A DNA stretch of 36,546 bases from Oscillospiraceae bacterium. GTDB taxonomy: Bacteria > Bacillota > Clostridia > Oscillospirales > Acutalibacteraceae. The notes below the pieces were generated by a model. That model had not been told where the DNA came from. It did not search any database and worked only from the letters and a program-made list of their open reading frames with translations. The DNA lies in assembly GCA_902792985.1 (NCBI GenBank), contig CADBBT010000030.1, forward strand, positions 1 to 36,546, written 5' to 3'. Each line of letters begins with the position of its first letter. The first letter of the stretch is position 1. Made by a program: the position numbers and the translations under genes. Of the stretch, positions 2,412-33,701 are shown piece after piece.

Positions 2412-2462
2412 GTTCGTTCTATTGTGCCGCTGCTGCTCATAGTCTTGTTGAGGGGTGGTGGC

Positions 2463-3326
2463 ATGTGTTCTTTTTCTTATGACGCTTTGGTGCGCACCGT
2501 GTCGCGGCTGCGCGCCGAGGCGCCTTTTTTGCATGTCGGGGTGTTTGGACGAAGCACCTGCGGCAGGGGGTTGTTTGCCCTGCGGTTCGGGGATGCGCCC
2601 GGCGGTGCGCTGGTGCTCGCAATGCTTGACGCGGCGCAGCAAACAGCCGGGCAGGCTTTGCTCGACTGGGCGGAGAATATGAGCGCGTGTCTGAATGCGG
2701 ATGTGCCGCTTTGCGGAGTCGATCTTTCACGCGTGTTTCGCCAAAGCAGCCTGACGCTGGTGCCGTGCATGAATCCGGACGGGCTGGAGATCTGCCGGGA
2801 CGGCGCAAGGGGCGCAGGTTCGCTGGGACGGTTTGTGCGGCGGCTTTCAGACACAGACGAACCCTGGCATGCCAATGCCGCCGGGGTGGAACTGACGCGG
2901 CAGTTCCCATATCGGTTTGAGTTTTTGCAGCAGACGCAGGCGCTCTCTGAAACACAGCAGCCGGCTGCGGCGGGCTTCTTCGGTACCGCACCGCTCACGG
3001 AGCCGGAGGCGCGTGCGCTGATGCAGCTTTGCCGCCGGGAGCGGTTTTCCCGTGCGCTGCTGCTGGAGGTGGGCACGCCGCTGCTGCAGGTGTTTCCGGC
3101 GGGGGAAAGCGCTGCCGACCGGGAGACGGTGCTTTCGGCAAAGATGCTTTCCGCGAGTGCGCTTGTGCCGTTTGTTTTGCCGTCGCCGCAGGAGAGCGCC
3201 GGCGCGTTTGCGCCGTGGTTTGCGCAGACGCAGCAGAAGAACGCGTTCACCTTTTTTGCCGAGGCGGACAGTGCCGTCTATGCGCGGCGGCTGGAGGAGC
3301 TGCTGGTGCTGTTTGCGGTGATGTGA
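2463..3326 (+). CDS. M14 carboxypeptidase homologue lacking zinc ligands (probable pseudo-enzyme)
   Basis: The fold resembles gamma-D-glutamyl-diamino acid peptidases of family M14: VPCMNPDGLEI (about residues 100-110) matches the VPxxNPDG strand, WHANAAGVELTRQFP matches the W.aN..GVDLNrnFP segment, and GTAPLTEPEARAL matches the pre-His loop. The catalytic equipment is missing, however. Where active enzymes have HxxE the protein reads AMLDAAQQT. The third-ligand HS(Q)G position reads LLLEVGTPLLQ. No plausible general-base Glu motif is visible near the end. The start chosen is ATG 2463, preceded by AGGGGTGG; an in-frame GTG at 2424 is less well placed. It has no signal peptide. It follows maf by about 50 bases and may end that operon. 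It could bind wall peptides or a partner protein without cutting. Confidence 0.65.
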   Translation: MCSFSYDALVRTVSRLRAEAPFLHVGVFGRSTCGRGLFALRFGDAPGGALVLAMLDAAQQTAGQALLDWAENMSACLNADVPLCGVDLSRVFRQSSLTLVPCMNPDGLEICRDGARGAGSLGRFVRRLSDTDEPWHANAAGVELTRQFPYRFEFLQQTQALSETQQPAAAGFFGTAPLTEPEARALMQLCRRERFSRALLLEVGTPLLQVFPAGESAADRETVLSAKMLSASALVPFVLPSPQESAGAFAPWFAQTQQKNAFTFFAEADSAVYARRLEELLVLFAVM

Positions 3327-3408: not shown

Positions 3409-3553
3409 TTTTGCGCACGGCTTTGCCGTGCGCAAAAGGCGGCGGCGGGACCGCGCGGCGAACGCCGTGCGAAAAACGAAGCGTGCTTCGTTTTTGAACC
3501 GTGCGAAGCACGGATCGTCCCGCCGCCGCGTTTGCGCGCAGCGAAGCTGCGCG
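3409..3553 (+). repeat. Multi-hairpin repeat element, copy A
   Basis: Five hairpins in a fixed order. H1: TTTTGCGCACGG (3409-3420) with 3426-3437. Outer stem: GCGGCGGCGGGAC (3439-3451) with GTCCCGCCGCCGC (3517-3529). Inside it are H2 (3452-3460 with 3463-3471, one G-T pair), H3 (AAAAACGAAGC 3472-3482 with 3485-3495) and H4 (CCGTGC 3499-3504 with 3508-3513). Trailing H5: CGCGCAGC (3535-3542) with GCTGCGCG (3546-3553). H3 has A5 and T5 flanks and would work as a terminator in both directions. It lies between a plus gene ending at 3326 and a minus gene ending at 3589. Copies B and D share this architecture. Confidence 0.85.
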
Positions 3554-3588: not shown

Positions 3589-4437
3589 TCAACGGATTGT
3601 AGTTGCACTGCGTGCATTACCGTGGTATGTAAATGGTTTTCGTATATTGCGATCTTCGACCGCATTTGAGCATGGTAAATCACCCTTTTCTTCTGCAAAC
3701 CCCAGCTTCCGCAGCGATTTCATCCCGCAGCATTCCTCCAGCGCCGACGCAAACTGTACACGGTCGATCCCGTCCGGCCGCAGGGATTCGATCTCTTCCG
3801 GCAAATTGACATCCGCGCCGCACACCGTTTCCGCGTGTAAAAACAGCCGCTGCTCTGTTGTGATGACCAGCCCAGAAAAATCACGCGGCAGCCACGCGGC
3901 GGAAAGCGTGATCGCGGCGCCGGTTTGCGGTTTCGGCGCGTAAAGCGGCGCAACACACAGCGCCATGCCTGTTTGCGCAAGCAGGGTTTGTTGTACGGCT
4001 TCATATTGCTCCGGACGGGCGGTCAGCACACGCAGCGTTTTTGCAAAAGGCGCGAGCTGGTGTATGTGCTGCGTCAAAGCGGCCTGCGGATCCGTCAGGG
4101 TGATCGGTGTCGATTGTGGTGGAAGACCTTTTTCGCGCAGTACACGGACGGCAAAATTCAGCAGCAAAAACTGCGGCAGTGTCTGCGGTGCAAATGTGCG
4201 GATGCCGCTTTCTTCGGGCGGCGTGACGGACGGCGGCAGCAAAAAGCGGCGGCGCAAGGAACCTGCTGCAAGGGCAATGTCCGCCCATGGCAGGCGGCCG
4301 CTGTTTGTTTGCACCGTCATGCGATAAAACGAAAACGCGCCGGGCAGTGCAACGCGTGTAACACTGATTGTGCTTTGCGCTTTTTTGCGGCGTCTGTATG
4401 TGTACGCAGGCGCGCTGATGGATAGCGTAACAAACAA
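3589..4437 (-). CDS. Conserved hypothetical protein, unrecognised
   Basis: A 282-residue protein I cannot assign. The start chosen is TTG at 4437, because AAGGAGG lies at 4452-4446 with an 8-base spacer; the longer frame from 4521 runs through this ribosome binding site and is unlikely. The N-terminus is short and basic (YRRRKKAQ), followed by VALPGAFSFYRM. The middle holds alternating strand/helix segments with hydrophobic strands (FLLLNFAVRVL, TLRVLTARPEQYEAVQQ, MALCVAPLYAP, FSGLVITTEQR), suggesting a Rossmann-like alpha/beta fold. There is no signal peptide, membrane helix or cysteine cluster. The C-terminal GIDRVQFASALEECCGMKSLRKLGF could be a helical subdomain. It stands alone, divergent from the dapA riboswitch and convergent with the M14-like gene, with copy A as the likely shared terminator. 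Confidence 0.6.
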   Translation of the reverse strand: MFVTLSISAPAYTYRRRKKAQSTISVTRVALPGAFSFYRMTVQTNSGRLPWADIALAAGSLRRRFLLPPSVTPPEESGIRTFAPQTLPQFLLLNFAVRVLREKGLPPQSTPITLTDPQAALTQHIHQLAPFAKTLRVLTARPEQYEAVQQTLLAQTGMALCVAPLYAPKPQTGAAITLSAAWLPRDFSGLVITTEQRLFLHAETVCGADVNLPEEIESLRPDGIDRVQFASALEECCGMKSLRKLGFAEEKGDLPCSNAVEDRNIRKPFTYHGNARSATTIR

Positions 4438-4531
4438 TACCCGCCCCTCCTTTGCTCTGCTTTGCTTCATTCTATGTGCAACCGTCACAAAAAAGACGAC
4501 AGCAAAACAGCAAAAATCCACGAAAAAAAGG

Positions 4532-4560: not shown

Positions 4561-4584
4561 GATACAAACCGAATCCTACAATTA

Positions 4585-4746
4585 AAGATAGAGGCGCGGG
4601 GACGCATCAGTAACGAAGAGCAACCGGATGTTCGCAGCATCTGCTTTTCGCAAAAGGGCGACTCGCCGAAGGGGCCAGGCGAACGGTTCCCTGGGCGCGC
4701 GGAATAACAGACGCGCGACTGTCGCATTTTGCGGAGTGCTATTATA
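4585..4746 (+). promoter_or_regulatory. Lysine riboswitch (L box)
   Basis: Upstream of dapA the leader carries the conserved L-box landmarks in order: GATAGAGGCGCG at 4587-4598, GGGCGACTCGCCGAAGG at about 4658-4674, a paired GGCCAGGCG...CCTGGGCGCG segment, and a closing GGAGTGCTATTA at 4735-4746 that pairs with the 5' GATAG side as P1. This matches the class found upstream of lysC and dap genes in Firmicutes. Lysine binding should favour the terminator at 4786-4810 and switch dapA-dapB off. Confidence 0.88.
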
Positions 4747-4785
4747 ATTGCGGAATCCACCTTTCTGCGGTGGCAGACGATTATC

Positions 4786-4846: not shown

Positions 4847-5737
4847 ATGAAAAAGCCTGTTGTTTTCCAGGGCGCCGCGACCGCGCTTGTGACACCGCTG
4901 ACCGCCGAGGGCGTCGATTATCCGAAACTGCGTGAACTGCTCGAATGGCAGGTGGCCGAGGGCATCAATGCGCTCGTCATCTGCGGCACCTCCGGCGAAG
5001 GTTCCACCCTTTCCGACGAGGAGCACCGCGATGTGCTGAAATTCGCAAAAGACGTGGTCGGCGACCGTGTGCCGCTGATTGCGGGCACCGGCTCGAACGA
5101 TACCGCCTATGCGATCGATCTGACAAAGTACGCCTGCGAGATCGGCTATGACGCCATGCTCGTCGTCACGCCGTATTACAACAAAGCGACGCAGAAGGGC
5201 CTCATTGAGATGTTCACGACCATTGCGGACGCGAGCACCAAGCCCGTGATCCTCTATAACGTCCCTTCCCGCACCGGCGTCAACATTGAGCCTGCAACCT
5301 ACGCCGCGCTCGCCGAGCATCCGATGATCTGCGGCATCAAGGAGGCCAACAGCAACATCGCCAAGATCGTGGAGACCATGGCGCTCGTCGGCGATAAGCT
5401 GACGCTGTATTCCGGCAACGACGACCAGATCGTTCCGCTGCTGGCCTGCGGCGGCAAGGGTGTGATCTCTGTGCTGTCGAATGTGCTGCCGAAGGAAACC
5501 GTCGAGATGTGCAACAAATACTTTGCCGGCGACACAGAAGGCGCATTCAAGATGCAGTGCGAGATGTTCGATCTCATCAAGGCGCTGTTCTGTGAGGTCA
5601 ACCCGATTCCCGCAAAGGCTGCCGTCGCCGCGCTGGGTTATTGCGAGAATTATGTCCGTCTGCCGCTGACCAAGATGGAGCCGGAGCACGAAAAAGTGCT
5701 GCTTGACTGCATGCGCGCGCAGGGACTGAACGTCTGA
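4847..5737 (+). CDS. dapA: 4-hydroxy-tetrahydrodipicolinate synthase
   Basis: Condenses pyruvate with aspartate semialdehyde, the committed step of diaminopimelate/lysine synthesis. It is a 296-residue class I aldolase TIM barrel. The N-terminal GAATALVTPLT, the GTSGEGSTL phosphate/substrate loop (about residues 45-53), YYNKATQKGL with the catalytic-triad Tyr, LYNVPSRTGVNI, and GIKEANSNIAKI with the Schiff-base Lys (about residue 164) are all intact. Length is normal. AAAGGAG lies about nine bases before ATG 4847. It is the first gene after the lysine riboswitch, so it is predicted to be repressed by lysine, with dapB following ten bases later. Confidence 0.97.
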   Translation: MKKPVVFQGAATALVTPLTAEGVDYPKLRELLEWQVAEGINALVICGTSGEGSTLSDEEHRDVLKFAKDVVGDRVPLIAGTGSNDTAYAIDLTKYACEIGYDAMLVVTPYYNKATQKGLIEMFTTIADASTKPVILYNVPSRTGVNIEPATYAALAEHPMICGIKEANSNIAKIVETMALVGDKLTLYSGNDDQIVPLLACGGKGVISVLSNVLPKETVEMCNKYFAGDTEGAFKMQCEMFDLIKALFCEVNPIPAKAAVAALGYCENYVRLPLTKMEPEHEKVLLDCMRAQGLNV

Positions 5738-16115: not shown

Positions 16116-16297
16116 AATCAAAAATGAAAAAAAGAAACAGAGGATGAATTCGCATTTTCGGCGTTTTGCGGCAGAAGATTGCCGCTGCTTTTTGCAAACT
16201 ATCCAATGCTGTTGTTAATTTTATATAAAAACATACGCGCCGCATCATGCAAAATTTACAGAAAAAATATGAATTTTGATAGGCAAAAAACAGAAAG

Positions 16298-16308
16298 TGT
16301 GCTATAAT
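16298..16308 (+). promoter_or_regulatory. Extended -10 promoter for the MATE gene
   Basis: TGTGCTATAAT, 33 bases before ATG 16342. TTGATA at 16276-16281 is 21 bases away, too far for a normal -35, so the extended -10 probably carries the promoter. Confidence 0.55.
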
Positions 16309-16341
16309 TTTCAAAAGAAAAAATCTGTTCGGAGGACTTTT

Positions 16342-17694
16342 ATGCAAAAGGAAAATAAAATGGGCGTGATGCCGGTCGGCCGACTGATTCTGACGATGTC
16401 GCTGCCGATGATGCTTTCCATGCTGATGCAGGCGCTGTACAATGTCGTAGACAGCATCTGGGTCTCGCGCGTGGCGGAAGAGGCGCTGTCTGCCGTTTCG
16501 CTTGCGTTCCCGATGCAGAACCTGATGATCGGCGTTGCCACGGGCACCGGCGTTGGCATCAACGCGCTGATGAGCCGCGCGCTCGGCGAAAAGAATCCGG
16601 AGCGCGCCAACAAGGTTGCCGCAAACGGCATTTTTCTTGCGATGCTCAGCGCACTGGCGTTTTTCGTGATCGGCCTTTGCGCTACGCCTGCGTTCTTCCG
16701 CTTTCAAAAGGCGGTGCCCGGTTCCGCAGTCTGGAACTACGGTGTGGACTATCTTTCCATCTGCTGCTGTGTGAGTTTTGGCGTGTTCGGCCAGGTGACG
16801 ATGGAACGGCTGATGCAGTCCACCGGCAAGACCACGCTGTCGATGTTTACCCAGCTCACCGGCGCGATCGTGAACATGATCCTCGATCCGCTGCTTATCC
16901 TCGGCGTCGGTCCGTTTCCGCGTCTGGAGGCCAAGGGCGCCGCGATCGCCACAGTCATCGGCCAATTCTGTGCGTTCGGTATGGGCATTGTGCTCAACCG
17001 CAAGTTCAACAAAGAGATTCATGTGCGTGTGCGCGGCTTCCGTCCGAACGGCGAGATCATCCTCGATATCTATAAGATCGGCGTGCCGTCGATCCTCATG
17101 GTTGCCATCGGCTCGGTGATGACCTATCTGCTCAATCGCATCCTGATGGGCTTTTCCGAAACCGCGGCGGCGGTGTTCGGCGTTTATTTCAAGCTGCAAA
17201 GCTTTGTGTTCATGCCCGTGTTCGGCATGAACAACGGTGTGATCCCAATCATCGCCTACAACTACGGTGCACGCAACCGCGCGCGCATGACAAAGGCGGT
17301 ACGCGTGGCGATGCTGATGGCGGTATCGATCATGGCGGTCGGCACGGCGCTGATGTGGCTGTTTCCGGAAACGATGCTGCGCTTGTTTGACGCGTCGGAC
17401 TACATGATGGGCATCGGCGTGCCGGCGCTGCGTACGATCAGTCTGAGCTTTATTCCGGCCGGGTTCTGTATCGCGATGGGCTCGGTGTTTCAGGCACTGG
17501 GCAAGAGCTATTTTTCAATGATCGTTTCCTTTACGCGCCAGCTCGTGGTGCTGCTGCCGGTGGCGTATCTGCTTTCGCTGTCCGGCGATGTGACACGCGT
17601 GTGGTGGGCGTTCCCGATCGCGGAGGTGTTTTCGCTGCTGACATCGGTGGCAAGCTATATTTATGTCTATAAAAAGGTGATCGAAAAGATCTGA
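16342..17694 (+). CDS. MATE family multidrug/toxin efflux transporter
   Basis: Na+- or H+-coupled exporter of the inner membrane. It has about twelve hydrophobic helices and the family's repeated signatures: the N-terminal LILTMSLPMMLSMLMQALYNVVDSIWV (each MATE half begins with a P-x-x-x-x-x-x-x-x-x-N-x-x-D pattern), GINALMSRALGEKN, and LGVGPFPRLEAKGAAIATVIGQ at the half boundary. Length is 450 residues, normal. ATG 16342 was chosen because GGAGG precedes it by about seven bases; the longer frame from 16276 overlaps the promoter. It stands alone, divergent from the phosphoesterase gene. Substrate cannot be told from sequence. Confidence 0.93.
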   Translation: MQKENKMGVMPVGRLILTMSLPMMLSMLMQALYNVVDSIWVSRVAEEALSAVSLAFPMQNLMIGVATGTGVGINALMSRALGEKNPERANKVAANGIFLAMLSALAFFVIGLCATPAFFRFQKAVPGSAVWNYGVDYLSICCCVSFGVFGQVTMERLMQSTGKTTLSMFTQLTGAIVNMILDPLLILGVGPFPRLEAKGAAIATVIGQFCAFGMGIVLNRKFNKEIHVRVRGFRPNGEIILDIYKIGVPSILMVAIGSVMTYLLNRILMGFSETAAAVFGVYFKLQSFVFMPVFGMNNGVIPIIAYNYGARNRARMTKAVRVAMLMAVSIMAVGTALMWLFPETMLRLFDASDYMMGIGVPALRTISLSFIPAGFCIAMGSVFQALGKSYFSMIVSFTRQLVVLLPVAYLLSLSGDVTRVWWAFPIAEVFSLLTSVASYIYVYKKVIEKI

Positions 17695-17772
17695 CGAAGC
17701 ATTTGGAAATGCGGCTGAGGAAAGGCGGCAGGAGAAGCTGCTGCGAGAGAAAAAAATTGCCTGATTACTATT

Positions 17773-17799
17773 GTAGGGGCGGCCAATGGCCGCCCCTAC
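17773..17799. repeat. Perfect GC-rich palindrome in intergenic gap
   Basis: GTAGGGGCGGCC (17773-17784), loop AAT and its exact complement (17788-17799), a 12-bp stem. It resembles short palindromic intergenic sequences found in many gut Firmicutes. It lies about 35 bases before repeat copy B in the 17695-18126 gap, which otherwise shows no convincing gene. Confidence 0.6.
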
Positions 17800-17832
17800 G
17801 GGTTTTATCATATACATTTCAGCTAAACGCTG

Positions 17833-17978
17833 TGCGCACGGCTTTGCCGTGCGCAGAAGGCGGCGGCGGGACCGCGCGGCGAATGCCGCGCGAAAAACGA
17901 AGCATGCTTCGTTTTTGAACCGTGCAACGCACGGTTCGTCCCGCCGCCGCGTTTTCGCGCAGCGTAGCTGCGCGAAAA
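17833..17978 (+). repeat. Multi-hairpin repeat element, copy B
   Basis: Same order as copy A. H1: TGCGCACGGC (17833-17842), loop TTT and 17846-17855. Outer stem: GCGGCGGCGGGAC (17860-17872) with 17938-17950. H2: CGCGCGGC (17873-17880) with 17885-17892, all Watson-Crick where copy A has a G-T pair. H3: AAAAACGAAGC (17893-17903) with 17906-17916, a 24-base perfect palindrome. H4: AACCGTGC (17918-17925) with 17929-17936. H5: TTTTCGCGCAGC (17952-17963) with 17967-17978. It lies between convergent genes (MATE and HAD phosphatase). Confidence 0.88.
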
Positions 17979-18126: not shown

Positions 18127-18696
18127 TCATTTGATTTGGCGGATCTCGTTTTTCTTCACCATAAACACGCGTTTTGCAAGGGGGAAGAGGAACTCGTCGT
18201 TGACCGAATCGGTGTAAAAATCGTCGATCTCACAGTCCGGAAACGCGGCATGAAACAGGTTTACCTTATTGTCGCGATAGCAGGCGGAATGCACCTCGCC
18301 GGTTTTGACGTCGAAATCCGTGGCAATCAGGTGTCTGACACCGATGCGCGCGCAGATGTCTTCCATGATAAATCTCGGTGACGCAGTAATGATTACGTCG
18401 TCCGAGCGCTGGATGCGGCGGTAAAACGGTTTGATCCTGTGCTCGCGCTTGTTCCAGAACTCCGTTACCAAAGGCTTTAGGTCGGGCTTTTTGCGTGTGA
18501 AATAATCGCGCAGCAGCGGACCGTAGACGCGCATGAAGTCTTCCGCGTGCATTTCTCCGCGGTAATAGCGCCCCATGACTTTGATCAGATCGGGCACAAA
18601 GCGCATCACGCTCGGGTCCTCGCGGATATAGCGCAGAATGAACTGCACCGAGCTTTCGCCGTCATAGATCGTTTCGTCAAAATCAAATACGTTCAT
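18127..18696 (-). CDS. HAD-superfamily (subfamily IB, PSP-like) phosphatase
   Basis: Small-molecule phosphatase of the serB/HAD-IB type. Motif I is MNVFDFDETIYDGES with the nucleophile and acid-base Asp at residues 5 and 7; motif II is VIITASPRF with Ser/Thr at about 100; a Lys in DNKVNLF follows; motif IV is YTDSVNDEFLF with two acidic metal ligands at about 165-170. A helical cap lies at about residues 18-85. Length (189) is normal. Its ATG lies one base after the stop of the PTS-type permease gene, so the two are translationally coupled on the minus strand, suggesting it dephosphorylates a product brought in by that permease. That link is an inference. Confidence 0.88.
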   Translation of the reverse strand: MNVFDFDETIYDGESSVQFILRYIREDPSVMRFVPDLIKVMGRYYRGEMHAEDFMRVYGPLLRDYFTRKKPDLKPLVTEFWNKREHRIKPFYRRIQRSDDVIITASPRFIMEDICARIGVRHLIATDFDVKTGEVHSACYRDNKVNLFHAAFPDCEIDDFYTDSVNDEFLFPLAKRVFMVKKNEIRQIK

Positions 18697-28698: not shown

Positions 28699-30153
28699 TT
28701 GGCAGCATACAGACCGAAGAGTTTGGATGAATTGAACAATCAGTACGACAAAGTGAAATCTGCAGAGCAGGCGATCAAGCAGGGCAAGACCCGACTGGAT
28801 CCCGGCGAAAACGCAGAGCACACGTCGCAGCGGGTGACATGGAACTATGACCCCGCAAAATATCGGGTCAGCAAAGAGGAGGCCGCCGCATTGACGGGCT
28901 CCGTAGATCGTTTTATCAAAGAATTCTCTGCAAAAACGAAACCGCAGCACAGTGCGATGGAACAGGCGCAGGCGCAGATGGACGCGGCGCCGCAGGTGCA
29001 GCCGGAGCTGCAGCAGGAGACCGCCGCTGCGTTTGATGCGCTTTTGCAGCAGGCAAAAGCCGAAACCGTCAAAGCGCGGCAGCATTCGCAGGCACAGACC
29101 GTCTATTCCGATCCTCAGCCGCAGCAGAGCACACATCATCCGGCCGCGCCGATCTCCCCGGTTTCCACCGAGGCACAGCGCACGCAGGGCGGCATACATC
29201 ACGGCGTTGTGCAAAGCGAGCAGGCGCCTGTGAAAGAGGGCGAGCTGTCCGGGCTGATGGACGAGTATATGCGCGTGATGAATGACGAGGACGAGGAGGA
29301 GCGCGGTGGACGCTTCCGTCGGCGCAGAAAAGAGCGCAAACGGGAAAAAGCGCGCACGCAGCAGGAAATGCCGCTGACGCCGCCGGATACACCTGTGCCG
29401 CAGGTGCCGGTCGTTCCGTTCAATGCTGCACAGCCTGAGATGGAGCTGCCGCAGGATTTCCTTGCGCCCGAGGATGCATTCGAAATCCCCGAAGCGGTCG
29501 TCGCGCCTGTTGAAGAGGATGCGTTCGACGTTCCCGAAGAGGTCGTCGCGCCCGTTGAAGAGGATGCGTTTGACATTCCGGAAGAGGTCGTCGCGCCCGT
29601 CGAAGAGGATGTGTTCGACATTCCGGAAGAGGTCGTTGCGCCCGTTGAAGAGGATGCATTCGAAATCCCTGAAGAGGTCGTCGCGCCCGTCGAAGAGGAT
29701 ACGTTCGACGTTCCCGAAGAGGTCGTCACGCCCGTTGAAGAGGACGCATTCGACATGCCCGAAGAGGTTGTCGCGCCTGTTGAAGAGGACGCATTCGACA
29801 TGCCCGAAGAGGTCGTCGCGTCCGTCGAAGAGGATGTGTTCGACGTTCCAGGAGAGATCGATGCGGCTATAGAAGATGTTTATGCTGCGCCGGAAGAGGG
29901 CGCAGAACCTGAAGAAGAAGTGATCGAACCCGCAGAAATGTTTGACGAAACGACAGAAGAAGCGGTGGAGATCGGTGCCGGTCGAAGAATTCACGCAAGC
30001 GCCCGCGGACAGCGCGGCGGAACTGCCGGTGCCGGAGGATGTGTTCGCAGACGAACCGCAGACGGTCGAAGCGGACGCAGCGCCGGAGGAAACCGCAGTC
30101 GTGGACCCGGACAGACTGTTTTCCGATCCGCCGCAGGACGCGGCAGACGATGA
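28699..30153 (+). CDS. Acidic repeat protein, N-terminal part of a frameshifted gene
   Basis: Start is TTG 28699 behind AGAGGGTG; the product begins AAYRPKSLDELNNQYDKVKSA. Domain order: an N-terminal region with a WNYDPAKYRVSKEEAAALTGSVDRFIKEF helix, a Gln/Ala-rich stretch, a basic cluster (RFRRRRKERKREKART, about residues 209-224), then eight 15-residue repeats of the type (D/E)-x-PEEVVAPVEEDAF plus one degenerate unit. True coding seems to stop near 29973: beyond that the frame turns Arg/Gly-rich (RRIHASARGQRGG) while the +1 frame continues the acidic pattern with VPVEEFTQAPADSAAEL. Removing one base of GGT at 29974-29976 would give a single protein of about 778 residues ending at 31036. 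No homologue is recognised. Confidence 0.7.
   Translation: MAAYRPKSLDELNNQYDKVKSAEQAIKQGKTRLDPGENAEHTSQRVTWNYDPAKYRVSKEEAAALTGSVDRFIKEFSAKTKPQHSAMEQAQAQMDAAPQVQPELQQETAAAFDALLQQAKAETVKARQHSQAQTVYSDPQPQQSTHHPAAPISPVSTEAQRTQGGIHHGVVQSEQAPVKEGELSGLMDEYMRVMNDEDEEERGGRFRRRRKERKREKARTQQEMPLTPPDTPVPQVPVVPFNAAQPEMELPQDFLAPEDAFEIPEAVVAPVEEDAFDVPEEVVAPVEEDAFDIPEEVVAPVEEDVFDIPEEVVAPVEEDAFEIPEEVVAPVEEDTFDVPEEVVTPVEEDAFDMPEEVVAPVEEDAFDMPEEVVASVEEDVFDVPGEIDAAIEDVYAAPEEGAEPEEEVIEPAEMFDETTEEAVEIGAGRRIHASARGQRGGTAGAGGCVRRRTADGRSGRSAGGNRSRGPGQTVFRSAAGRGRR
29476..29880 (+). repeat. 45-bp tandem repeats inside the acidic protein gene
   Basis: Eight in-frame 45-base units (29476-29835) and a ninth degenerate one to about 29880, each coding for about (A/V/T)F(D/E)(V/I/M)PEEVVAPVEED. 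Unit-to-unit differences are mostly synonymous or D/E and V/I/M swaps. Confidence 0.92.
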
Positions 30154-31665: not shown

Positions 31666-32394
31666 ATGTTTGACGCACAAAAGGTCAAGCGCGAGTGCGC
31701 TGACTGGATCCGCAATTTTTTTGAAGAAAACGGCAAGGACTGCATCGCGGTCGTCGGCATCTCCGGCGGCAAGGACAGCTCGGTCGCCGCGGCAATGTGC
31801 GTGGAAGCGCTCGGCAAAGCGCGTGTGCTCGGTGTGTTGATGCCCTGCGGCACACAGGCCGACATCGATTGCGCGCAGCAGCTTGTGGCGCATCTGGATA
31901 TCCCGCACATGACCGTGAATATCAAGGATGCTGTGGACGGCCTGACCGGTGCACTGCCTTTTGCACCGTCGAAACAGACAACGACGAACCTGCCGGCGCG
32001 TATTCGCATGACGACGCTTTACGCCGTTGCACAAAGTCACAACGGACGTGTGGTCAACACCTGCAACCTTTCGGAGGACTGGGTCGGCTATTCCACCCGT
32101 TACGGCGACGCTGCAGGCGATTTCAGTCCGCTTTCGCACTTGACCGTGGCGGAGGTCAAGCAGCTCGGTCGCGCGTTGGGGCTTCCGGAAAATCTGATCG
32201 AAAAGCCGCCGATCGACGGCCTTTCCGGAAAAACAGACGAGGAAAACCTCGGCTTCACCTATGCCGAGCTTGACCGTTACATCCGCACCGGTGAGATCGA
32301 AAACGCCGAGCACAAGGCGCGCATCGACCGCTTGCACAGGCTGAATCTGTTCAAGCTGCAGCTGATGCCGGCGTTTGAATATGAAAGTCGTTAG
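31666..32394 (+). CDS. nadE: NH3-dependent NAD+ synthetase
   Basis: Last step of NAD synthesis: ATP-dependent amidation of deamido-NAD with ammonia. The ATP pyrophosphatase loop GISGGKDSSVAAA (about residues 32-44) is intact; NTCNLSEDWVGYSTRYGDAAGDFSPL and KPPIDGLSGKTDEENLGFTYAELD are family hallmarks. At 242 residues it is the short form without a glutaminase domain. TTGGAGGG precedes ATG 31666. Its TAG stop lies inside the first heptamers of the repeat array at 32386, so the last Ser-Arg codons are repeat-derived. It has its own short transcript between the upstream terminator and repeat copy D. Confidence 0.96.
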   Translation: MFDAQKVKRECADWIRNFFEENGKDCIAVVGISGGKDSSVAAAMCVEALGKARVLGVLMPCGTQADIDCAQQLVAHLDIPHMTVNIKDAVDGLTGALPFAPSKQTTTNLPARIRMTTLYAVAQSHNGRVVNTCNLSEDWVGYSTRYGDAAGDFSPLSHLTVAEVKQLGRALGLPENLIEKPPIDGLSGKTDEENLGFTYAELDRYIRTGEIENAEHKARIDRLHRLNLFKLQLMPAFEYESR

Positions 32395-32468: not shown

Positions 32469-32618
32469 CGCGCATGCGCTTTTTCAAAGCGCATGCGCGG
32501 GGGCGACGGCGGAACCGCGCGGCCATCGGCCGCGCGAAAAAGGCGCCGCAGGCGCCTTTTTCCCCGTGCGTTGCACGGGGTGTTTCGCCGTCGCCTTTTC
32601 GCGCTGCGAAGCAGCGCG
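32469..32618 (+). repeat. Multi-hairpin repeat element, copy D
   Basis: H1: CGCGCATGCGCTTT (32469-32482) with 32486-32499, 14 perfect pairs. Outer stem: GGCGACGGCGGAAC (32502-32515) with GTTTCGCCGTCGCC (32582-32595), one G-T pair. H2: CGCGCGGCC (32516-32524) with 32528-32536. H3: AAAAAGGCGCC (32537-32547) with GGCGCCTTTTT (32551-32561). H4: CCCCGTGC (32562-32569) with 32573-32580. H5: CGCGCTGC (32600-32607) with GCAGCGCG (32611-32618). It lies between convergent nadE and the minus-strand anchored protein gene. Confidence 0.88.
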
Positions 32619-32696: not shown

Positions 32697-33623
32697 TTAC
32701 CAGTTGATGGTGTAATCGTGAATGAAGGTCATGCCGACCTGCGCATCCACACCCATTGCCTTGACGTGCATCACGATGGGCAGTTTGTAGTTCGCGCTGA
32801 CCAGGTTGCCGGTCGCCTTGTCGATCTTGCAGGTGATCACAGCGTCATAGTAGTCTGATGAAAAGTCGGAAACGACCTTGGCGGCGGCTTTGACATCTTC
32901 GCCGCGGATGATGTTGAAGGAGGTGGCAACGCCGGTGTTGGTTGGATCGGTGCCGTCAATGAATTTCAGCGTGATGTTGTAATACTTGCCGTCGTCGGTG
33001 CAGGTGGCTTCCTTCACGTCAGATGCTTTTGCGGTGGACACCTTGTCGGTGTTCTGCACGGGATAGTTCGCGTTGATGTCGGCGCCCTCCCAGGTCACGG
33101 GTGTCTCATCCTTTTTCAGGAAGGTGTTGATCAGCGACTTGCCGATGCCCTGCAGGATGCCGGGAACGACCAGTTTATCTTCATTGTGCTGAAGATCTTC
33201 GTAGTTTCTTGTCACGCTCTTGGCGCCGCCCTTGATCTTGTTTGCGGCGGTCACATAGTATTTCACAATCTCTTCTTTGCCGCTGGGCGCTTTGCTCTCC
33301 GCGGCTGCAGCCTTGGTGGTCTTTTCGGTCTTGGCAGCCTTGGTCGTCGCCTCTGCGCCGCTGTCGGCAGCGGGAGCGGCAGGCTCGTCCGCCGCGGGCG
33401 TTTCGGTAACAGGCGTCTGTTCTGCGGGCGCTGCAGTCACGGGTGCAGGCGCAGCGGTCACGGGAACAGCAGCCGGCTGGGCAACGTCAGCGGTGCCGTT
33501 GTGGTTGACAGAGATATTCATGCCGATGTTGCCGGATGCGCCGAGCAGATAACCGCCGGTGAAGGCAATGATGATTGCGAACGCAATGGCAATGGCGCGT
33601 TTGGTCATTGAGGAGTTGGACAT
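32697..33623 (-). CDS. Membrane-anchored extracytoplasmic protein, function unknown
   Basis: 308 residues from ATG 33623, which AAAGGAAG precedes by about seven bases; the frame extends further upstream but without a site. An N-terminal signal/anchor (RAIAIAFAIIIAFTGGYLLGAS, about residues 8-29) leads into a Pro/Ala/Thr/Lys-rich linker of about 100 residues (PVTAAPAPVTAAPAEQ, TTKAAKTEKTTKAAAAES) typical of wall-spanning spacers. The C-terminal globular domain of about 185 residues (from EEIVKYYVTAANKIK) has many beta-strand-like segments (YYNITLKFIDGTD, YYDAVITCKID, LVSANYKLPIVMHVKAMG, QVGMTFIHDYTINW). I do not recognise a named domain; such proteins are frequent in Ruminococcaceae. It has its own promoter and terminator. 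Confidence 0.75.
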   Translation of the reverse strand: MSNSSMTKRAIAIAFAIIIAFTGGYLLGASGNIGMNISVNHNGTADVAQPAAVPVTAAPAPVTAAPAEQTPVTETPAADEPAAPAADSGAEATTKAAKTEKTTKAAAAESKAPSGKEEIVKYYVTAANKIKGGAKSVTRNYEDLQHNEDKLVVPGILQGIGKSLINTFLKKDETPVTWEGADINANYPVQNTDKVSTAKASDVKEATCTDDGKYYNITLKFIDGTDPTNTGVATSFNIIRGEDVKAAAKVVSDFSSDYYDAVITCKIDKATGNLVSANYKLPIVMHVKAMGVDAQVGMTFIHDYTINW

Positions 33624-33672
33624 AACGGGTCTTCCTTTCAACACGTGCGAAAACGCACAAAAATTCATGTTC

Positions 33673-33701
33673 ATTATAAACTATTTTTGATAGACATGCA
33701 A
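33673..33701 (-). promoter_or_regulatory. Promoter of the anchored protein gene
   Basis: On the minus strand TTGCAT (33701-33696), 17 bases, perfect TATAAT (33678-33673), 50 bases before the start. A small GTGCG/CGCAC hairpin lies in the leader at about 33645-33658. Confidence 0.78.

Follow-up and report, generated by a model that had tools for sequence, protein, structure and literature searches.

A dispersed palindromic DNA element, probably conserved for its folded shape, in a few related uncultured bacteria

REPs, the units of the REP/REPIN kind of repeat, are 20-40 bp long and mostly carry a GTAG or CGTC tag, and BIMEs are mosaics of alternating REPs with conserved sequence, in which several palindromes lie together in extragenic DNA. 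Mobile hairpin DNA is also represented by the mitochondrial double-hairpin elements or GC clusters, which consist of two hairpins. The attC sites of integrons vary in sequence, are recognised as folded single-stranded DNA and are tied to integrases; each of them forms a single long hairpin, imperfectly paired and with end boxes that are conserved. In a search with most subscription journals outside its scope, the titles and abstract openings of the papers listed held no description of the layout reported below, which is weak evidence of absence.

The element described here has a length of ~145 bp and occurs three times in a stretch of 36,546 nucleotides (the window), which is contig C30 of a 2.6-Mb genome in 90 contigs (G000). 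A first-pass annotation had placed copies A, B and D at 3409-3553, 17833-17978 and 32469-32618 and had assigned to each a leading hairpin, an outer stem enclosing three hairpins and a trailing hairpin, and both positions and layout were borne out. Copy A, on the plus strand like the others, begins with a leading hairpin of 13 bp with a 3-base loop at 3409-3437 (DNA fold); sequence and DNA fold together define the outer stem, with the 5' arm GCGGCGGCGGGAC at 3439-3451 and the 3' arm at 3517-3529, the enclosed hairpins h1 (3452-3471, one G-T pair), h2 (3472-3495, with an A-run/T-run stem) and h3 (3496-3516, one A-A mismatch), and the trailing hairpin (3535-3553). In copy B, finder and junction count place the 13-bp outer stem at 17860-17872 and 17938-17950, with h1 at 17873-17892 and h2 at 17893-17916; according to the junction count h3 lies at 17917-17937 and all four junction positions are free of unpaired bases. 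Its leading hairpin (17833-17855) was located by finder and DNA fold and its trailing hairpin (17952-17978) by DNA fold. Copy D has a leading hairpin of 14 bp at 32469-32499 and the 5' arm GGCGACGGCGGAAC at 32502-32515 (both by finder and DNA fold), followed, by finder and junction count, by h1 (32516-32536), h2 (32537-32561, AAAAAGGCGCC/GGCGCCTTTTT), h3 (32562-32580) and the 3' arm (32582-32595), which forms one G-T pair with the 5' arm; one base at the junction is unpaired, and the trailing hairpin lies at 32600-32618 (DNA fold). The differences between copies that had been read from the letters proved right: the trailing stem switches between CGCGCAGC and CGCGCTGC with pairing kept, the outer stem and middle hairpin of copy D are unlike those of A and B in sequence, and the G-T pair of copy A is G-C in copy B. 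Elsewhere in the window, at 29425-29919, 45-bp direct repeats were observed (~11 units, reported as eight copies of 180 bases that overlap); both strands have open frames there.

When both strands of the three copies were folded as single-stranded DNA, each was predicted to form the leading hairpin, the outer stem with three hairpins and the trailing hairpin, with z-scores of -9.1 to -14.3 for the six folds and none of 200 shuffles folding as well in any case. A sequence-blind finder, which tolerated at most one mismatch per stem and scored G-T as a mismatch, recovered B and D in the window and no core in 30 dinucleotide shuffles of it; copy A was missed, probably because of its mismatches.

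The copies in the window belong to a large family. Searched at the DNA level, this genome yielded 15 matches, the query included, of 87-156 bp and 83-100% identity, together with many diverged ones. A covariance model built from 14 copies (R1) gave 102 strand-matches at E<=1, merged by hand into 63 candidate sites, of which 57 lie at E<0.01 and the other six at E between 0.01 and 0.35; the E-values of the models are rough (short calibration). In the closest relative of this genome, the goat-rumen MAG RGIG3704 (G041), R1 gave 100 matches at E<=1 and at least 42 sites among the matches listed, and in RUG11928 (G004) at least 51 sites, these counts being lower bounds because the best 10 to 150 candidates per genome were scored. 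At E<=0.01 R1 matched four of 39 genomes: G000, G004, G002 (4 matches) and G019 (1). A broader model (R2) matched 10 of 34 genomes of the genus at E<=0.01, giving 93, 87 and 81 strand-matches in the rich genomes G004, G000 and G041 and 9, 7, 4, 3, 2, 1 and 1 in G002, G009, G040, G043, G046, G005 and G019, respectively; the remaining 24 had none at this threshold. In an order-level sample of 295 genomes, searched with stricter filters and with at most the best 10 candidates per genome scored, matches at E<=1e-4 were limited to G000 and a genome of another family (G100). A scan of named genomes for the exact pattern returned 31 stretches, 10 in RGIG3704, 20 in RUG11928 and a single one in Zavarzinia that is probably due to chance. 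Dozens of copies are thereby placed in a small number of related, uncultured bacteria, of which one comes from goat rumen. The first-pass annotation had proposed a family of elements in which selection or copying acts on structure; the proposal is supported by the many further copies with the same stem order that the covariance-model search found in this and related genomes, and by the very strong covariation treated below.

The property conserved among the copies appears to be the folded shape, an outer stem with exactly three hairpins, mostly abutting and often flanked by a hairpin on each side. A sequence-blind finder using Watson-Crick stems, perfect or with one mismatch, detected this core in 139 of 157 sites (51/63 in G000, 50/51 in G004, 37/42 in G041 and 1/1 in G002), and both flanking hairpins were also present, by its criteria, in 83 of the 139. 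The junction has no unpaired base in 82 of the 138 cores of G000, G004 and G041, so that the folded strand would be a four-way junction. A scan that allowed two to six enclosed hairpins was run on stretches of five genomes, namely 60 kb of G009, 60 kb of G002, 20 kb of G040, 98 kb of G000/G041 and the window, and returned 28 cores with three hairpins, one with two and none with four to six; as these G000/G041, G002, G009 and G040 stretches were chosen around model matches, the core densities are not unbiased. All 144 cores at the site loci chosen by the models had three hairpins; the models favoured that number, the scan itself did not. It gave no core in 100 kb of G001 or 40 kb of G017. Chance folding of GC-rich DNA or an assembly artefact can practically be dismissed as the source of the family: the genomes are drafts and copies stand at or close to the ends of some contigs (C31 in G000, C31 in G041), but 1.09 Mb of shuffled sequence gave no core in the scan for two to six hairpins, 1.37 Mb gave none in the scan for three, and matching loci in different assemblies carry elements, so that the artefact is contradicted by orthologous copies.

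Loops, put at 2-4 bases by the first-pass annotation, are mostly of 3-4 bases, with the exception of the middle hairpin, the length-variable one, which is longer in 45 of 139 cores. GNA triloops are favoured in DNA hairpins, and 162 of 382 triloops of the elements are GNA or its complement (98 + 64). In other species, too, sequence-blind scans found cores with three hairpins, whose sequences are unrelated. AT-rich cores of the ATATCATC/GATGATAT type were observed at L357:8736-8848 and L363:10701-10835 in G009 and G040; judged by their letters they are unlike the model and would form a second sequence family of the same shape. Three cores of G040 (L327, L335 and L341) lie inside a further inverted repeat of ~15 bp with TTTGTGCAGGAGG-like ends, which resembles transposon terminal repeats. 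The leading and trailing hairpins are themselves palindromes, and a further outer inverted repeat was seen by eye in some copies. Of 28 young copies from G000 and G041, ~12 have ~100 bp in common beside the leading hairpin, and a few share ~200 bp more. A larger mobile unit was considered on this account and rejected: copies A and B lack the ~100 bp extension, and therefore the 145-bp unit stands.

Once more copies were aligned, covariation proved very strong, with 59 of 60 pairs changed on both sides. In the alignment (A3) 97.2% of cells pair, compared with 30-51% when it is slid, and the covariation score of 0.662 (shuffled mean 0.159) was reached in none of 500 shuffles. A3 comprises the best 150 of 199 matches, from 100 loci; orthologs are included and, the element being near-palindromic, many sites are represented by both of their strands, so that these counts overstate independent events and show strength only.

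This covariation is extreme but looks unlike that of a one-strand RNA. Among 8054 stem pairs, collected with a finder that makes no distinction between G-T and A-C, 7992 are Watson-Crick, 21 G-T, 23 A-C and 18 other, and one-strand tolerance of G-U is therefore not seen. A control of 83 terminator-like hairpins outside the elements gave 25 G-T, 7 A-C and 16 other mismatches, and a similar mismatch test can thus detect tolerance at the RNA level. In codirectional elements oriented by transcription the counts were 3 G-T, 7 A-C and 4 other, a small subset with 10 G-T or A-C mismatches in all. Both strands may be transcribed at convergent sites, and this would equally abolish G-U tolerance; it is the small codirectional subset that bears on this point. 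Relative to transcription, 23 elements have the same and 32 the opposite orientation, with no clear preference. At gathering score, a lysine riboswitch was the sole Rfam match in the window, and the elements of six loci gave none, with E up to 1 considered. The riboswitch (RF00168, 74.1 bits) lies at 4581-4749, upstream of the gene at 4847.

The genomic location of the elements bears on the same question. Gene calls made with a home-made codon model place 80 of the 157 sites between convergent genes, 55 between codirectional and 5 between divergent ones, with 17 unclassified; copy A was scored as codirectional though it is convergent, because the caller missed the real gene to its right. At no site does the overlap with a called gene exceed 40 bases, the elements being extragenic, mostly downstream of genes and of high copy number. 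Other gaps of at least 100 bases at the same loci are codirectional in 33 cases, divergent in 21 and convergent in one, a baseline that is biased because gaps with elements were left out. Copies A, B and D all lie between convergent genes. Copy A is preceded by a gene with a Peptidase_M14 match (2424-3326, plus strand) and faced by one at 3589-4521 (minus strand), which has relatives in 29 of 34 genomes and no Pfam match at E<=0.001. Copy B lies between genes for a MatE transporter (16276-17694, plus strand) and a converging HAD hydrolase (18127-18696, minus strand), and copy D between that for an NAD synthase (31666-32394, plus strand) and a converging gene at 32697-33674 (minus strand) with no Pfam match at E<=0.001. 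The interval between the MatE gene and copy B holds, at 17772-17806, a hairpin of the form TGTAGGGGCGGCC...GGCCGCCCCTAC with GGGTTTT after it, which may serve the MatE gene as terminator.

An RNA element, either a bidirectional intrinsic terminator or a stabiliser of 3' ends lying between convergent genes, with selection at the transcript level favouring compensatory changes, would agree with the downstream and convergent location and with the middle hairpin, which often has an A-run/T-run stem of the kind that one report describes for bidirectional terminators of low-GC Firmicutes (PMC1590033). Such a hairpin was also found in one core of G019 (L326), and a simple scan of 79 convergent sites detected no separate terminator at 50 of them. 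At the other 29 the scan did detect one, on one side or on both, and most of the listed cores from other species lack the A-run/T-run hairpin or have it in reverse. In the gap between araD and galE, G000 has an element between two ordinary terminator-like hairpins (by eye) and G004, with the same neighbours, has a plain terminator alone, a comparison that concerns one locus whose exact ends are not defined. Together with the near equality of G-T and A-C in the stems and the lack of a clearly preferred orientation, these observations make an RNA element unlikely. The first-pass annotation had named an RNA, a DNA cruciform and a non-autonomous mobile element as candidate natures; the first is disfavoured by G-T being about as rare as A-C, a DNA-level element fits best, and mobility has indirect support.

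That support for mobility consists of the high copy number in three close species, the lack of matches at E<=0.01 in 24 of 34 genomes of the genus and the one empty locus; no transposition event was identified. Of 24 other relatives with a match, 8 were inspected at the araD locus, and no core was found in them. A scan of 61 copies for target-site duplications gave no signal outside the flanking hairpins; the sole excess over permuted controls, a 5-mer in 15 of 61 copies (permuted maximum 10), lies inside them. A REPIN-like miniature element moved in trans by a RAYT/IS200-type Y1 transposase would be a natural candidate, since REPs are also reported downstream of genes (PMC3733652) and REPINs are described with compensatory hairpin changes and a proposed 'clover' fold (PMC3116915), and RAYT-family proteins are found in G000, G041 and G004 (NF047646: 62.4, 63.7 and 80.8 bits; cut-off 80). 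Nevertheless, GTAG occurs near an end in 2 of 139 cores and CGTC in 4 (16-base window, either end), and no core was found in five stretches of 2.5-5 kb around Y1 genes, L379, L380 and L381 of the rich genomes among them. PF01797 is present in 21 of 34 genomes of the genus, some of them without elements, and is not matched in G009 and G040, which are 97-98% complete and have related cores. A RAYT/IS200 partner was accordingly rejected, as PF01797 across the 34 genomes and the classified Y1 loci give no consistent link, and movement by such an enzyme is judged improbable.

The way in which the arms change was followed at orthologous loci. A comparison of flanks gave 61 cross-species pairs, 39 of them syntenic on both flanks, and at 32 of 42 G041 sites an element stands at the matching place in G000 (one or both flanks); these counts are lower bounds because the G041 and G004 loci fetched are almost all element-bearing. 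The G041 locus matching copy B (L211 end, contig C67) stops at the contig edge, apparently with the trailing-hairpin end first, and its element may be inverted or replaced relative to that of G000. Both cores could be parsed in 24 G000-G041 pairs (matched by one or both flanks), giving 127 stems (4 more unalignable) with 1291 base pairs, of which 1224 are unchanged, 46 changed on both sides to another Watson-Crick pair, 20 changed on one side (7 G-T, 9 A-C, 4 other) and 1 changed otherwise. The 25 pairs with G004 gave 87 stems (39 more unalignable), with 687 unchanged, 92 two-sided, 11 one-sided and 1 other. All these counts are limited to stems that could be parsed in the two species alike with no more than one mismatch, so that one-sided changes are undercounted in the ratio of 46:20. 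Without this condition, the alignment of G000-G041 pairs syntenic on both flanks, each taken both ways, gave 89 two-sided and 139 one-sided changes (26 G-T, 40 A-C, 73 other), an alignment-dependent count whose one-sided part is attributed in part to misaligned arms.

Two-sided changes are scattered singly and in a Poisson-like manner (89, 30 and 8 stems with 0, 1 and 2), and their ratio of transitions to transversions, 33:13, cannot be told apart from that of the flanks, 4172:2479 (p 0.22). Exactly inverted loops were found in 8 of 81 compared hairpins (permuted mean 2.4, p 0.0015). In G100, the genome from another family, two cloverleaf elements (L376 and L377, about 1510-1625) have hairpins 2 and 3 with near-identical stems and a compensatory difference in each, and loops TTC versus GAA. 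Template switching in DNA can yield two-sided compensatory changes, as described in one report (PMC8794818). Copying from arm to arm would explain two-sided changes without G-U intermediates, the point-mutation spectrum and the flipped loops. The flanks have diverged by 9.6% and the stems show two-sided change at 46 of 1291 pairs (3.6%); neutral arm copying alone is therefore insufficient, and either selection or homogenisation among copies is also at work.

Selection alone on a protein-bound DNA shape, such as a site bound by gyrase, HU or a junction-binding protein, would require no copying between arms, and the slower change of stem pairs than of flanks, the exactly-three rule with few junction bases and the 32 of 42 G041 sites with an element at the matching G000 place all agree with it. 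However, 13 of the 46 two-sided changes are of transversion types, which must pass through unpaired states, and inverted loops are rearrangements at the DNA level, which selection of this kind does not by itself generate. As a complete explanation, selection alone is considered possible but rather doubtful.

The reading preferred here, and thought probable, is that of a dispersed non-coding palindromic DNA element conserved for its shape, whose arms are likely kept matched by copying at the DNA level. The functional form would be DNA, namely a cruciform or one strand that folds during a transient single-stranded state. When one arm mutates, hairpin-templated repair or replication would often transfer the change to the opposite arm, a process that would sometimes flip the loop, and purifying selection or shape recognition would remove copies that lose the junction. 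New copies would arise rarely, through a trans-acting enzyme that recognises shape more than sequence, and would survive where neither promoters nor reading frames are interrupted. The predicted four-way junction suggests recognition by junction-binding proteins. A bolder possibility, put forward tentatively, is that of shape-inherited replicators, for whose recognition, copying and retention nothing but the folded four-way (Holliday-like) junction, made of an outer stem and exactly three hairpins, would count, and which a junction-processing enzyme rather than a sequence-specific transposase would maintain or spread. If arms are copied from their partners the letters would drift freely, which would lead to unrelated sequences of the same shape across species of a single genus and in one genome of another family.

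Strong covariation is usually taken as the best evidence of a functional RNA. In this family, very strong covariation (59 of 60 pairs) accompanies signs of DNA, with G-T and A-C equally rare and loops flipped. If confirmed, the elements would offer a natural system for studying how the arms of palindromes stay matched, a caution for RNA discovery based on covariation, and a largely sequence-free class of repeats that similarity searches would miss. The exactly-three rule also raises the question of which cellular protein, if any, recognises an intergenic four-way junction.

Compared with known systems, the elements share with bacterial MITEs their small size, non-coding nature, inverted repeats and patchy distribution, and differ in that no parental transposon was found for them and that their internal hairpins are conserved in shape. 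As BIMEs do, they group several palindromes outside genes, although BIMEs, by their description, are not a closed four-way junction; by description too, the mitochondrial double-hairpin elements lack an outer stem enclosing three hairpins. With attC sites they have in common a variable sequence and a folded form, which is predicted in their case, but they are dispersed and made of several nearly perfect hairpins. The nearest known kind is that of REP/REPIN repeats, which are likewise reported as high-copy, extragenic and palindromic, located downstream of genes, mostly in convergent and codirectional gaps (PMC3733652), and as showing compensatory changes in hairpins (PMC3116915). In contrast to REPs, the elements are ~145 bp long and untagged, enclose exactly three hairpins, and have largely free stem sequences, and no linked transposase was found for them. 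As the REP tags were rare at the ends of cores and no core was found in the stretches around RAYT-family genes, the element is not filed under REP/REPIN; it is rated as a variant within the palindromic dispersed-repeat kind.
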